From a virus, in the IMG/VR virus record IMGVR_UViG_3300042881_001491, positions 1 to 23,669 of that record: a DNA stretch of 23,669 nt. One strand, 5' to 3'. The notes below the pieces were generated by a model that was not told the DNA's origin, searched no databases, and worked only from the letters and a program-made list of their open reading frames with translations. Below are positions 2,913-19,700 of the stretch, in pieces (position 1 is the first letter of the stretch; the number at the start of each line of letters is the position of its first letter). The translations under genes and the position numbers were made by a program.

Positions 2913-3300
2913 GGTCAAGTTTACCGACGATTATCGTTGGGACTTAGCTTTTGAAGCCATAAAGGAATTAACAGGAGTTAGCCCGAACGCCATTAGAAGG
3001 TCTAGTAGGGTTACTCCACTTCCTGCGGCTAGGATGATGCTTGCTTATCTTATGTACAAGGAACTTGGAATGAGTCCTGCTTATATCGGTCATCAGATGA
3101 ACAAAGATAGAAGTGCTGCTTATTATGAGATTCAAGCCTTAGAAGAGTATAAGCAAACAGACCCATACAAAAGCTATTACGAAGCATTTAACGAACTATT
3201 TTATAAGAAATTAAAAGACTTAGGTTATTGTTGCCACTGTTGCGGAGCCTTAGAGCCTGTAATGAAGGGAGACAGACCATTAAAACCAAACAAACAATGA
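2863..3300 (+). CDS. DnaA domain-IV-like DNA-binding protein with Cys cluster
   Basis: A 145-aa protein. Residues about 24-95 resemble the C-terminal DNA-binding domain of DnaA: a helix pair (RMMLAYLMYKELGMSPAYIG) followed by a recognition region (NKDRSAAYYEIQALEEY), comparable to 'ARxIAMYLxRELTxxSLPEIGRxFGGRDHST'. The C-terminus carries a CCHCC cluster (residues 123-127) that could bind a metal but is too compact for a standard zinc ribbon. There is no AAA+ ATPase. The start at 2863 (alternative ATG at 2869) places about 50 nt of overlap with the preceding gene. The next gene encodes a second DnaA-IV-like protein. Role inferred: origin recognition or early regulation. Confidence 0.7.
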   Translation: MTMLEARKKKKKISLSKVKFTDDYRWDLAFEAIKELTGVSPNAIRRSSRVTPLPAARMMLAYLMYKELGMSPAYIGHQMNKDRSAAYYEIQALEEYKQTDPYKSYYEAFNELFYKKLKDLGYCCHCCGALEPVMKGDRPLKPNKQ

Positions 3301-3860
3301 TACACGACCCAAAACCAGTAGATTTAGAATTATTAAAAGACACTTGCTGTAAAGTATTTGAAGTAAATATTGACGACCTGTTAAGCCCATGCAGAAGAAG
3401 AAATGTAATGGATGCAAGGAGAGCTTTATTTTATATACTTAGAACCGAATATGGTTACAGCGAATTAGGTATCTCACGAGCCACAGGAGGAGCTAGAGAC
3501 CACTCTACAATCATCCATTCTAATTGCACCACAGGCGACATCTTAGATACCGACTATCAATTTGCTACAAGGTATAAGACGTTCTACGAGAGTTTTACAC
3601 TAAGGCAATACGTAAAACCATTACCACCAAAGCCAAAGACATACAAGCTAAAAGTTAAGCCCATCTATGAGTATTATACCGATGAGATGATCGCCCAGTC
3701 AAAGATTAAGATGGAGAATAGGATTAAGATGATTTCTGATGGGTACAAGCAAAAGATTTACGATTTCTTTATTAGAAGCAATAGCTTTTTGAATACTCAA
3801 GACAAATTTGGAATATCAAGACGTTTATTAGATAACATCATAATCGAGAAATTAAAATGA
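3297..3860 (+). CDS. DnaA domain-IV-like protein (DnaA_C helix-turn-helix)
   Basis: I start this 187-aa protein at the ATG at 3297, where it overlaps the previous stop as ATGA; the frame is open further upstream (from 3228), but that would overlap the previous gene by 73 nt. Residues 8-80 are a clear DnaA domain-IV match: 'CCKVFEVNIDDLLSPCRRRN', then ARRALFYILR, and the signature ARDHSTIIHS (66-75), equivalent to RDHSTVLHA of DnaA. In DnaA this domain contacts DnaA boxes. The remaining 110 residues are basic and helical and unrecognised, with a second possible helix-turn-helix near the end (FGISRRLLDNIIIEKL). No ATPase domain is present. It probably binds the phage origin or promoters. Confidence 0.85.
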   Translation: MIHDPKPVDLELLKDTCCKVFEVNIDDLLSPCRRRNVMDARRALFYILRTEYGYSELGISRATGGARDHSTIIHSNCTTGDILDTDYQFATRYKTFYESFTLRQYVKPLPPKPKTYKLKVKPIYEYYTDEMIAQSKIKMENRIKMISDGYKQKIYDFFIRSNSFLNTQDKFGISRRLLDNIIIEKLK

Positions 3861-4489
3861 CCGGCTACTACTACACTATGCCTGCTGACGTAATGTTCGA
3901 TAAAACTATCTCTGACCAGTCTAAATTGGTATATACTCTTATTGCAAATTTCTGCGATAGATACGGGGTTTGTACTGTTACTAATAAGCGATTAGGAGAG
4001 CATTTAGGTAAGTCAGATAGAAGCTTATCGAGAGTCATTTCTGAGCTTTCAGAAGCAGGTTATATTGACGTAAAAGTAGATGTTTTAGATGCTAATAAAA
4101 GGACAATTACCCTCACGACAAATCTGTCTACCCCTCACGACAAAAATGACGTGACCTCACGACAAAAATGTCTACATAATAATAATATATATAATAATAA
4201 TAAATATATTGTCGAGATAGAGGAAATTGTGAAGTATTTGAATGAGAAAACAAACTCTAAATACCGTACCGGAAATGAGAACACCAAGAGGTCTATAAGC
4301 GGAAGGTTAAACGAAGGCTTTACCGTAGAAGATTTTAAAACTGTTATAGACAACCAGGTTGCGAGATGGACGGGAACGGAATACGAGCAGTACCTAACAC
4401 CAAATACTTTATTTAGTCCTAGCAAATTCGAAAAATATCTTAACTTTGCTAATAGACCAAAAGAAGAAAAACCAAAAATCAAAGCATAA
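3857..4489 (+). CDS. phage replication initiator, winged helix plus conserved C-terminal domain
   Basis: A 210-aa protein of two domains. Residues 1-85 form a winged helix-turn-helix (HTH_36 type; TNKRLGEHLGKSDRSLSRVI), as in phage replication initiators. Residues about 120-197 match the conserved phage C-terminal domain often named Phg_2220_C (EEIVKYLNEKTNSKYR, LNEGFTVEDFKTVIDNQVAR, and LTPNTLFSPSKFEKYLN). The linker (about 86-117) is asparagine-rich and is encoded by the repeat array and AT tract described separately, as in lambda O, whose gene contains the origin. The protein likely binds these repeats and hands over the helicase encoded directly downstream (ATGA-type overlap at 4489). It is coupled to the upstream gene (ATGA). 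Confidence 0.87.
   Translation: MTGYYYTMPADVMFDKTISDQSKLVYTLIANFCDRYGVCTVTNKRLGEHLGKSDRSLSRVISELSEAGYIDVKVDVLDANKRTITLTTNLSTPHDKNDVTSRQKCLHNNNIYNNNKYIVEIEEIVKYLNEKTNSKYRTGNENTKRSISGRLNEGFTVEDFKTVIDNQVARWTGTEYEQYLTPNTLFSPSKFEKYLNFANRPKEEKPKIKA
4111..4166 (+). repeat. three 12-bp direct repeats at 22-bp spacing (iterons)
   Basis: CCTCACGACAAA occurs exactly at 4111-4122, 4133-4144 and 4155-4166. Start-to-start spacing is 22 bp both times, two helical turns, so all copies face the same side of the DNA. Copies 2 and 3 share five further bases (AATG after the 12-mer and more), and copies 1 and 3 both continue to TGTCTAC. Because 22 is not a multiple of 3, the copies are read in three different frames (LTTN, PHDK, TSRQ), so the repetition is selected at the DNA level, not as a protein repeat. 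These look like initiator-binding iterons. Confidence 0.85.
4173..4210 (+). other. AT-rich tract next to iterons, candidate DNA unwinding element
   Basis: Directly after the third repeat the sequence is nearly pure A/T for almost 40 bases (ATAATAATAATATATATAAT and on), interrupted only by one C near its start. It is the most AT-rich stretch seen within any gene of the window. Together with the iterons it has the layout of a replication origin: initiator sites beside an easily melted region. A partial inverted copy of the repeat core (TTGTCG, 4209-4214) closes the tract. Confidence 0.65.
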
Positions 4490-5844
4490 TGACCAGAATA
4501 CAACCACACAATATCGAAATAGAGGAGCAAGTCTTGGGGATTATTTTAAACAACCCTAAAGCATTTGTAACCGCTATAAACATTATTAACGCTAATTGCT
4601 TTTACAAGAATGAACACCAGACTGTATTTAACGCTTTTACTAGCCTGTATACTCAAAGCAAACCAATCGACCTAATATCGGTTACTACTTACCTAAGAAA
4701 CACCCATAACTTAGAGTCTATCGGAGGGAACTTCTTCCTGATGGAGCTTATGGAGCGTTCAGGATCCTATTCGTCCTTTGAGTTCTTCTGCCATACACTA
4801 CTTGAATTAAACGAGCGTAGAGAAGGAATTGAGAAGTCATCAAAGTTAATTAACAGCCTATACGACCTATCGACCGATTTAGACGAGAATATGGTAATGG
4901 CAAATGAGGTGGTTTTAAGCCTATCTAACGAAGTATCTAATGTCGGCGGTGTCCAACTATCCACTTCACTACTTGAGATGATTAGAGAGCAGGAAAATGA
5001 GCTTAGAGGGGAATTCTCAGGTTGCAAGAGCAGATACACTGATTTAGATAGGGTAATAGTAGGCTTTAAGAACCAACAAGTTGCGGTATTAGCAGGTAGA
5101 CCTGGAATGGGTAAGACTACCTTCGGAATTAATATTGCTTATAGGCTCGCAAAGTACGATAAGACCCCAGTTGGTTTCTTTAGCTTAGAGATGAGTAGTG
5201 TTGAGCTAACTAAGAAGTTTGCAGCAATCGAATCTCAGATTTGTAATTCTCGGATGACTATGTTGCCTGAAAAGCAGGTTTTAGATTACTTTAGTGCTAT
5301 TCAATCTATCGGTGATTTGCCAATCTTTATTGACGATAAACCCGGTGCTACAATAGACGAGATTAGGGCGAGAGCAATCACAATGAAGCGTAAGCATGAC
5401 GTGAAGTTAATCGTTATCGATTACTTGCAACTTATCACTACCAAGTCTAAAGGAGGCAATAGGGAACAGGAGATTTCCGAGATTAGTAGAAAGGTAAAGC
5501 TATTAGCTAAGGAGCTAAACATCCCTATCATCGCTATTTCCCAATTAAGCCGTCAGGTAGAGCAATCAGACCCTAAAATACCTTTCCTACACCACCTAAG
5601 AGAATCAGGAAGTATCGAGCAAGATGCGGATATGGTATTGATGCTTTGGAGACCTGAGTACTACGACTACCCTGAGTTTGAATACGACGGCAAGATGGTA
5701 GACTCTCGTGGAATGGTAGTCACCTATGTACGTAAAAATAGGAATGGAGAGACAGGGAAAGCCCTTATGAAGTGTAATTTGGCTTATGCAAGTTTCTACG
5801 ATAATAATGTTGATAATTTCATGTTGCCTAATTACGATTTTTAA
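4489..5844 (+). CDS. dnaB: DnaB-like replicative DNA helicase
   Basis: A 451-aa hexameric helicase of the DnaB family, close to normal full length. The N-terminal helical domain (residues 1-100, starting with PHNIEIEEQVLGIIL) interacts with primase in DnaB. The C-terminal RecA-like domain has Walker A at 203-211 (GRPGMGKTT), motif H1a (GFFSLEMSS), Walker B ending at D311 (VKLIVIDYLQL), H3 (IPIIAISQLSRQVEQ), H4 (LRESGSIEQDADMVLMLW) and the basic KNRNGETG loop. It unwinds DNA at the phage fork. The gene follows the initiator gene with overlapping stop and start, the common initiator-helicase pairing. No separate primase or helicase loader is recognisable in the window. Confidence 0.96.
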   Translation: MTRIQPHNIEIEEQVLGIILNNPKAFVTAINIINANCFYKNEHQTVFNAFTSLYTQSKPIDLISVTTYLRNTHNLESIGGNFFLMELMERSGSYSSFEFFCHTLLELNERREGIEKSSKLINSLYDLSTDLDENMVMANEVVLSLSNEVSNVGGVQLSTSLLEMIREQENELRGEFSGCKSRYTDLDRVIVGFKNQQVAVLAGRPGMGKTTFGINIAYRLAKYDKTPVGFFSLEMSSVELTKKFAAIESQICNSRMTMLPEKQVLDYFSAIQSIGDLPIFIDDKPGATIDEIRARAITMKRKHDVKLIVIDYLQLITTKSKGGNREQEISEISRKVKLLAKELNIPIIAISQLSRQVEQSDPKIPFLHHLRESGSIEQDADMVLMLWRPEYYDYPEFEYDGKMVDSRGMVVTYVRKNRNGETGKALMKCNLAYASFYDNNVDNFMLPNYDF

Positions 5845-5880: not shown

Positions 5881-5998
5881 AGTCAGGTGGCGGAATGATA
5901 GACGCACTGAGGGCAAGAAAGTTGGCGCACAACTGAGGTATTGGAGGATGTTGCCTGTTGAACCAATACAATTGCAGGTTTGAGTCCTGCCCTGACTA
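5881..5998 (+). tRNA. tRNA-like RNA (Leu-type outer arms, anticodon arm not recognisable)
   Basis: The ends form a 7-bp acceptor stem AGTCAGG (5881-5887)/CCTGACT (5991-5997) with discriminator A5998 and no encoded CCA. A D arm (GCG 5890-5892/CGC 5903-5905) with the Leu-like sequence GCGGAAT.GATAGACGC follows, and a 5-bp T arm GCAGG/CCTGC (5974-5990) with loop TTTGAGT. The D loop has GA for the usual GG and the T loop has T for C56, so the G19-C56 contact may be replaced by A19-U56. Between the D and T arms are 68 nt instead of about 32. They contain hairpins AGTTG/CAACT (5920-5934) and GTATTGG/CCAATAC (5938-5969) but no normal anticodon stem-loop. It may be a degenerate, inserted or repurposed tRNA. 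Confidence 0.6.
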
Positions 5999-16790: not shown

Positions 16791-19700
16791 TATTTTAATT
16801 TTGCTTTTAATTCTTCAATTTGTGCTTGTTGCTCTTGTATAGCTTTTACCAAGATTGGTATTAAATCCTGTCTAACAGATTTGTATTTCTCATCTGATTC
16901 TTTTTCAGAAACCTTAAATTCATCTATCAAGTCAGGGAATACCTCTTCAAATTCTTGAGCTATAAATCCTCTATCGTTTTTAATCCCCTTACCAGCTCCA
17001 TCTTTCCAATCGAATACACGTGGTTTAAGCATCATTATTTTGGATAGAGCATTATCAATATCTCTTATATTTTCTTTTAATCTAATATCAGATAAGGCAC
17101 TTATTGTTGTGTTTGTTGCAAAGACTGTTCCGGAACCTGAAACGTAGAATCTATATGTTGAATTATTTGTATCCCAAACGTGTAGTGTGTTTGTGCTGTT
17201 AACAATAGAACTGAACAACTCACCAGAATTACCAGATGTACCATATATCATTACACCATTTGCTGTCAATGCATCTGATGTCTTACCAATTAAAACTCGA
17301 CCCCCACTGGTGATACGCATACGTTCAGAGTTATTCACATTAAATGTAATACCTAAACTACCTGCGCTATTATCCCTCAAGAATCCTAAGTGAGCAGCTG
17401 GGTTACCACTTGTGCCATACCACATACCCATTTTTGCCTGCTCTGAATTGACTGCTCCACCTGAACCATTCGCGAATCCAGCTTTAAAGTTTGCATCAGA
17501 CGCTCCAGCAGTAAATAATGCCGCAACGGTGTTAGCTCCAGATGATGGATTACAATGAAGAAGAACCGATGGAGATGAAGTGCCTATACCCAATCCAGTA
17601 CTCGTAAGTCTCATCTGCTCTGCATTCGCATTTGCAAATACAACGCCGTCTCCACCAGCGTTTCCTATCGCTAAAATATCTCCTTTTGTTCCATTAAGCG
17701 GGTTAGCACCTGATCCATTCCAGTAATTCATTACCGGTAAGAATAGAGATGAAGAAGATCTTTGAAGGTAAACAACATCATTTACAGTCAAGCTACCAGC
17801 TACGTGAAGCTGCGTATTAGGGTTACTAGTTTGTATACCTACGGCTCCAGAGTCCCCAGTAATTGTTAAACTTTTGGTAAATGTACCTGAATTTTTTCTT
17901 GTTGATATTGTAAAATTATAAGCATCTCCTCCATCAAATTCCATTCCCATTAATGATCCGTAACCACCCCCACTTTGGTCGGCAATTAATTCAATACCGC
18001 CTTGAAGTATTGTTAACTTATTACCAGGTGAGGAAGTGCCAATTCCCACGTTACCATCGCCTCTAACTCTAAGATAATTAGCCGTCTCAGACCAATTTGT
18101 AACCAAGAAGCTGTAGTCGGAGCTATTTGTTCCTGCTGCAACGTGAACTCCGTATGATTGACCAGTTGTACTTCCTCCCTTGACGTAAACAGTATTTGAG
18201 TTGTTATCTCCCTGAATAGCTAGTTTACCGGCAGTTGTATATCCAGTATTGTTTAATAATAGATTGCCATTTGAAATAAGTGACATGGCAGTAGTCGTAT
18301 TGTTAACTACAAAGTGTATCGGGTCCCCGGTAATTTGTCTTATATATGCACCAACACCAGCCAGAGTACCAGAACTTTCATTATATCCAATTATAAGTCC
18401 GTAAGAGTTATTTTTGTTTACGCCAATCCATTTTTGAGTACCGGTTCCTGATGATGATATTTGTACAGCTAAGTTGCTATCTATGCTAGTAGCTCCACCG
18501 GCCAGCATAACTCCAGAAGATTTTATATCACCAGTAACATCTAATCTCACCGATGGGGCAGCATTGCCAATGCCTATTTGACTTCCATTATCGTAAATAA
18601 CGCTATTCCCAACAGTTGTGCTTCCAGTAAATCTTGTTAAATATCCAGAAGTACCAGTTCCAGTTACAGGGTTAGTTAGCAAAGGTTGGCCACCTAATCC
18701 AGCTAAAGTATAAGTAGGAATATTTAAAGTAGCTCCAACAAGTGTTGCTGAACCGCTATTTCCAGTAGTAGTTAATGTTAAAGCGTTTTGTTTATTATTG
18801 AAAGTACTCCAGTCGGTAGAAGATAAAGCTCCTCTATTAGTAGCACTTGCAGTAGGGATATTTAAAGTAATATCTCCGCTTGAAGTAATTGGACTGTTAG
18901 AAACCGATACATCAGTTCCAGTAGTACCTAAGGCCAAACCAACACTTGTAACCGTTCCTACGCTCCAAGATCTATTTGCAGTTAAGTCATAAGACGTACC
19001 ATTGATAGATAATGTTCTTACGTTAGTTACAGGAGTATATCCTAAGCCAGTAGTAACATCTGAGCTAGTTAAAGCTAAAGTACCACCTAAAGTCAAGTTG
19101 CCTGAACCTGTAACACTTCCGCTCAAGCTCAAACCGCTAACAGTTCCAGTTCCACTTACGCTAGTTACAGTACCTACATTCCAGCTTCTGTTAGCCGATA
19201 GATCGTATTCTGTTCCGTTGATGGTAAGTGTACGAGTATTATCTACCTTAGCATTTAAAGCATTTTGTAGGTCTGTTTGGTTAGATAAAGTTCCTGTGAT
19301 AGAACCCCAAACCGCATTAGGCTCAGAAATCTTCACATAAACGCTACCAGACCAACGATAAACAAAATTGGTATCTAAGGTGATATAAATCTTTCCAGTC
19401 TCTCCAGTCGCGGGTAATGCAGCGTAGTTAGCAACCTCAACTACATCATCTACGTAGCTTGGTAATTGAGTAGAAGGAACTTTACCAGCACCGTCTAAGC
19501 TCGCATATCCATTAGCCACTCCCTTGTTTGCTACGTTCTCAGGAGTATATCCTAAAGCAGCTTGTTTATTGTTAAATGTATTCCAGTCGGTAGAGCTTAA
19601 GTAACCATCAGCAGACGCTCCAGATTGAGTAATACCGATAGTTCCAGAACCAGTGATTGTTCCGCCTGTAAGAGGTGCAGAAGTACCAACTGAGGTAACT

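Follow-up and report, generated by a model that had tools for sequence, protein, structure and literature searches.

Between positions 4111 and 4210 of a viral DNA from an uncultivated phage clade, three direct repeats followed by an A/T tract very probably form a replication origin of iteron type, embedded in the phage's initiator gene where this codes for the linker of the protein. The DNA analysed, here called the window, is 23,669 nt long (IMGVR_UViG_3300042881_001491, positions 1-23,669). Embedded iteron-type origins are a known kind of system, with lambda, P22 and 80alpha as examples, and what is new is the occurrence of such an origin in the present phage clade, together with a switch by which all three repeats have changed in concert. 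The result is a precise and testable origin for a clade that probably infects Bacteroidota, and a literature search of incomplete coverage found no described origin for phages of this phylum.

The repeats and the gene that contains them

The 12-mer CCTCACGACAAA occurs at 4111, 4133 and 4155 with an exact spacing of 22 and 22 bp, just as the initial annotation had described, and the similarity between the copies reaches beyond the 12-mer to about 18 nt. Nine bp after the last 12-mer begins a pure A/T run of 35 nt, the longest in the window, where the next longest is 19; the tract described as lying directly after the repeats thus adjoins them with a short gap. By nearest-neighbour energies, no 40-mer of the 23.7-kb window is less stable than the one that begins at 4171. 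The features of the locus, all on the + strand, are the following.

3857..4489, +: initiator gene, 210 aa, winged helix and Phg_2220_C (HTH_36 8.9e-8; Phg_2220_C 5.4e-27; phrog_428 4.3e-45)
3905..4066, +: coding sequence of the HTH_36 domain (residues 17-70), presumed to bind the iterons (Pfam; winged-helix fold in the model, Z up to 10)
4111..4132, +: iteron 1, a 22-bp unit with core CCTCACGACAAA at 4111-4122
4133..4154, +: iteron 2, core at 4133-4144
4155..4175, +: iteron 3, core at 4155-4166
4176..4210, +: A/T tract, presumed DNA unwinding element, coding for an asparagine-rich linker (longest A/T run and least stable 40-mer; no synonymous AAC in the tract in nine sequences)
4226..4444, +: coding sequence of Phg_2220_C (residues 124-196), presumed helicase-loading domain (Pfam; confident helical model; DnaD-like PHROG matches)
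4489..5844, +: gene of the DnaB-type replicative helicase (DnaB_C 3.6e-80, DnaB 7.5e-24; neighbour kept in relatives)

The repeats begin at offsets of 254, 276 and 298 from the start of the initiator gene, from which follows that the three copies fall in three different codon phases. When the protein and the codon pool of the gene are kept and synonymous codons are redealt in 2000 trials, the longest equal-spaced triple is at most 7 nt, to be compared with the 12 nt observed. Plain base shuffles likewise give at most 7 nt, and other blocks of 633 nt in the window at most 5. The triple is therefore far from chance. The 11-mer CTCACGACAAA has no further exact copy anywhere else in the window, and a second repeat cluster was found neither in the window nor in a related, probably circular genome (G003, below). 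The repeat units of the window also contain a dyad around CA-AAAA-TG, weaker than that of lambda, which is only suggestive of the symmetry expected for dimer binding: it is not significant for any single block, while a joint test over the copies gives P=0.034.

Both domains of the initiator are above their Pfam cut-offs, Phg_2220_C with 94 bits against a cut-off of 27, and residues 3-205 match phrog_428, 'replication initiation protein', over the full length of the profile (4.3e-45). Weaker PHROG matches are to DnaD-like helicase loaders (phrog_1701, 5.7e-10; phrog_186, 2.5e-9) and, in the N-terminal part, to O-like initiators. The model of the protein consists of a winged helix, a low-confidence stretch at residues 98-114 and a helical C-terminal domain. 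A fold search with the N-terminal model returns generic winged helices with Z up to 10, while the C-terminal domain has no convincing match in the PDB, with which a relation to DnaD is still compatible; sequence searches of the PDB gave nothing useful. Repeats and A/T run together occupy roughly codons 85 to 118, so that the putative origin sits between the two domains of the initiator, and the low-confidence stretch, which belongs to a low-complexity linker predicted to be disordered, is coded by the last iterons and the A/T tract.

The helicase gene, said initially to follow just after the repeats, is indeed the next gene and encodes a full-length DnaB with N and C domains, and it starts at 4489, 279 bp past the A/T run, overlapping the stop codon of the initiator gene by one base. 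Upstream of the initiator lie ERF and YqaJ recombination genes, and two genes for helix-turn-helix proteins resembling DnaA domain IV. The product of 2863-3300 matches Bac_DnaA_C at 2.1e-6, below the Pfam cut-off, and that of 3297-3860, directly upstream of the initiator, at 5.9e-11; both are without an AAA+ domain, and both genes are kept in relatives. They may encode initiation helpers or regulators. A gene for a separate helicase loader was not seen among the early genes examined, a set that covers part of the small ones.

After the helicase gene, at 5882-5996, there is a tRNA-like stretch of about 115 nt, whose ends GTCAGG/CCTGAC are complementary and which contains GGTGGCGGAATGATAGACGC, resembling a D arm, and GCAGGTTTGAGTCCTGC, resembling a T arm. 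Neither ARAGORN nor Rfam gives a match for it, and it is possibly a degenerate or interrupted tRNA of leucine type.

Conservation and concerted change of the repeats

Relatives close to the initiator over their full length occur on 12 viral contigs, with 55-100% identity. The comparison of repeats in related phages, proposed at the outset, comes out in favour of the origin: all close relatives that have linker sequence, over the whole range of 55-100%, retain the three copies with their 22-bp spacing as well as an A/T-rich tract. When the window is compared with relative L008, synonymous differences amount to 0/18 in the repeats and 0/8 in the tract, against 18/59 and 16/51 in the two flanks. 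Similarly, between L004 and L009 the iterons are 97% identical, while most other blocks of the gene are 53-71% identical and the 3' end 80%. Selection on the repeats thus acts at the DNA level. In the tract, all asparagine codons of nine sequences are AAT (53/53), while elsewhere in the same genes there are 85 AAT and 41 AAC. From this follows that the asparagine-rich linker looks like a by-product of the origin, as had been proposed. The A/T tract is, moreover, the least stable 40-mer in each of eight related loci. An inverted TTGTCG past the tract was considered as a further half-site and rejected, as it is absent from L006, L007 and L009.

In four relatives of about 55% identity (L010-L013), the three copies have jointly changed to CCTATACNCAAAAA. 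The sequence of these copies is CCTATACGCAAAAA or CCTATAC(T/C)CAAAAA; register, 22-bp spacing and distance to the A/T tract are unchanged, and the peptides that the copies encode differ between copies in spite of the concerted change in the DNA. The presumed start of the recognition helix changes along with the repeats, from SDRSLSR to SESTISR or SEGTISR. This is consistent with binding sites that co-evolve with the initiator, and, with only one clade contrast, it is no proof of it. The switch between the two clades amounts to a natural experiment on the specificity of initiator for origin. L006 and L008 have 85-100% nucleotide identity before and over the iterons and 54-81% in the blocks coding for the C-terminal part, so that the part that binds DNA seems to move as a unit with its sites.

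The contig recorded for L009 (G003; L179, L180) measures 29,292 bp. It has an 18-bp repeat at its ends, across which a capsid gene is split, and is therefore probably a complete circular genome. By comparison with this relative, probably complete at 29.3 kb, the window is likely to be part of a genome about 29 kb long. G003 contains exactly three iterons, in one place and beside its least stable 40-mer. GC skew, by which the start of replication was to be mapped, follows gene orientation in the window and in G003 and gives no clear signal at the site. An origin with DnaA boxes of oriC type was rejected as well: TTWTNCACA occurs once in the window, at 17331, which is fewer than expected by chance, and never near the site.

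A gene for DnaB adjoins the initiator gene in L002, L003, L006, L008, L009 and L014, and is one gene away in L004, L005 and L007. The helicases are 88-96% identical where the initiators are only 56-65% identical (window 4489-5844 and 3857-4489, respectively, compared with L008 and L009), which means that the initiator changes much faster than the helicase, by divergence or by exchange. At the junction between the two genes, L004 has a gene for a C5-cytosine methyltransferase (L004:1243-2355) and L007 a gene for a Mom family protein; L007 also has a PAPS-reductase-like gene between its two DnaA_C-like genes, and the coordinates of the DNA-modification genes in L007 are 3636-4271 and 1728-2429. 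Next to the putative origin, the junction resembles a hot spot for insertions.

Mechanism, known origins and rival explanations

Initiation at 4111-4210 could proceed as follows. The winged-helix domain, probably as a dimer, would bind the three 22-bp iterons, which are about two helical turns apart and would therefore lie on one face of the DNA. The complex of initiator and iterons would strain and melt the adjoining A/T tract of 35 bp, the Phg_2220_C domain would help to place the phage DnaB, product of the next gene, on the opened strands, and primase and polymerase of the host would follow. A stronger version of this scheme, which we regard as rather unlikely, is that the initiator with its winged helix and Phg_2220_C alone opens the origin and loads the phage DnaB without a separate loader, possibly aided by the two proteins resembling DnaA domain IV, and that iteron type and recognition helix switch jointly as a specificity code. 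If true, this code would be readable across hundreds of phages.

With three evenly spaced direct repeats about two helical turns apart and an adjoining A/T-rich element, the site resembles iteron origins. The initial annotation compared the layout with that of lambda O, and the comparison stands as far as the origin itself goes: in lambda ori, iterons spaced by about 20-24 bp precede an A/T-rich region in the middle of gene O, and O binds as a dimer to these iterons, which are imperfect inverted repeats (PMC7466680). In lambda, however, there are four iterons, the loader P recruits the DnaB of the host, and no Phg_2220_C is described for O; a loader gene of P or DnaC type, partner of the initiator in a lambda O/P module, is here replaced by the gene for DnaB itself. 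The proteins were also said to differ from those of lambda, and this is true only in part, as the N-terminal part of the initiator has weak similarity to O-like PHROGs. The closest gene layout is that of Salmonella phage P22 18/12, where the origin is annotated inside initiator gene 18 and the DnaB-like gene 12 follows, just as the putative origin here lies inside the initiator gene with a phage DnaB directly downstream. The P22 initiator is annotated as O-like and is absent from the matches to the initiator of the window, and the P22 origin is annotated by similarity to lambda.

The initiator of Staphylococcus phage 80alpha ORF20/ORF21 is homologous to that of the window (45% over residues 128-201), and the 80alpha record has a replication origin annotated inside the homologous gene. 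A deletion there is not complemented in trans, ORF20 and ORF21 together make a plasmid replicate, and an embedded origin has been suggested (PMC5499656). 80alpha differs in that it relies on the helicase of its host, with a gene for a DnaC-like loader next to the initiator gene, in that this host is staphylococcal, and in the N-terminal domain and the repeat sequences. Among lactococcal phages, the initiators of TP901-1 and Tuc2009 bind direct repeats within their own genes (PMC8965321) and r1t ORF11 shares Phg_2220_C with the initiator of the window (49%), and in Bacillus phage SPP1, oriL has direct repeats and an A/T-rich unwinding element in gene 38 (gp38), in a phage with its own DnaB (PMC6316719). 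These four phages have Bacillota hosts and different repeat sequences, and SPP1 has in addition a second origin and a separate loader, gp39.

The repeats could instead be an operator, through which the initiator or a protein resembling DnaA domain IV regulates the initiator-helicase operon while replication starts elsewhere. A winged-helix protein can act in regulation through clustered sites, and genes for DNA-binding proteins lie just upstream; yet the site is in the middle of the gene, the adjoining A/T tract is kept as a melting minimum, the probably circular G003 has no other repeat cluster, and homologous genes elsewhere hold origins. An operator in place of an origin is therefore improbable, and autoregulation could coexist with origin function. 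Still less probable is a site for partition, incompatibility or packaging. Such sites are likewise built from short direct repeats, but none of the early genes examined could be recognised as a partition gene, and the repeats lie where known embedded origins do, within the initiator gene and with the A/T tract towards the helicase. As for protein-level repetition or low-complexity coding without any role for the DNA, to which the low-complexity linker lends some plausibility, the initial annotation had excluded it by the three reading frames of the copies. That argument is borne out by synonymous shuffles that never come close, by the frozen synonymous sites over the repeats and by the concerted switch in L010-L013 with peptides that differ between copies, and this explanation is refuted. 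The embedded iteron origin, proposed from the window and now backed by conserved spacing, suppressed synonymous change, concerted switch and conserved melting minimum, is the reading that we retain.

Host and wider initiator family

That the phage infects Bacteroidota, as first proposed, is probable from its capsid protein, whose nearest relatives are in Cellulophaga phage phi10:1 (41%) and Flavobacterium phage 11b (34%). For initiator and helicase, the nearest matches lie in other phages, mostly of Bacillota, and in records of gut phages. A scan of genomes for prophages gave initiator relatives mainly in Bacillota and none in Bacteroidota, and is not decisive for the host. An exchange of the replication module with phages of Bacillota or the gut may have taken place.

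A wider scan for triple repeats, with periods from 14 to 35 allowed, covered 111 dereplicated sequences, made up of homologues of the initiator together with lambda O and P22 gene 18. In 24 of the 111, the initiator gene has a triple repeat beyond that of synonymous shuffles, and in 16 of these 24 the period is 22 or 23 bp: five from the clade of the window, one the lambda O control (period 23, z 5.2) and ten from elsewhere, some of them interrelated. The scan is insensitive, in that it flags neither 80alpha, r1t and phage 77 nor P22; from this follows that unflagged sequences say nothing, known origins such as those of 80alpha and P22 being among those missed. Across the family the repeat sequences differ completely, as exemplified by CCCCGAACTTAAGTTCGCC in L080 and TTACCCAAAGGGGAAATTCCAT in L066. 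Origins of this kind may thus be read from sequence, as 22-23-bp repeats in the initiator linker that are out of frame and unexplained by synonymous recoding. Iterons of 22-23 bp and unrelated sequence are found in the initiator genes of other uncharacterised phages at L080:3286-3348, L066:3113-3180, L053:3222-3287 and L018:2329-2387, and these four clusters are candidate origins.
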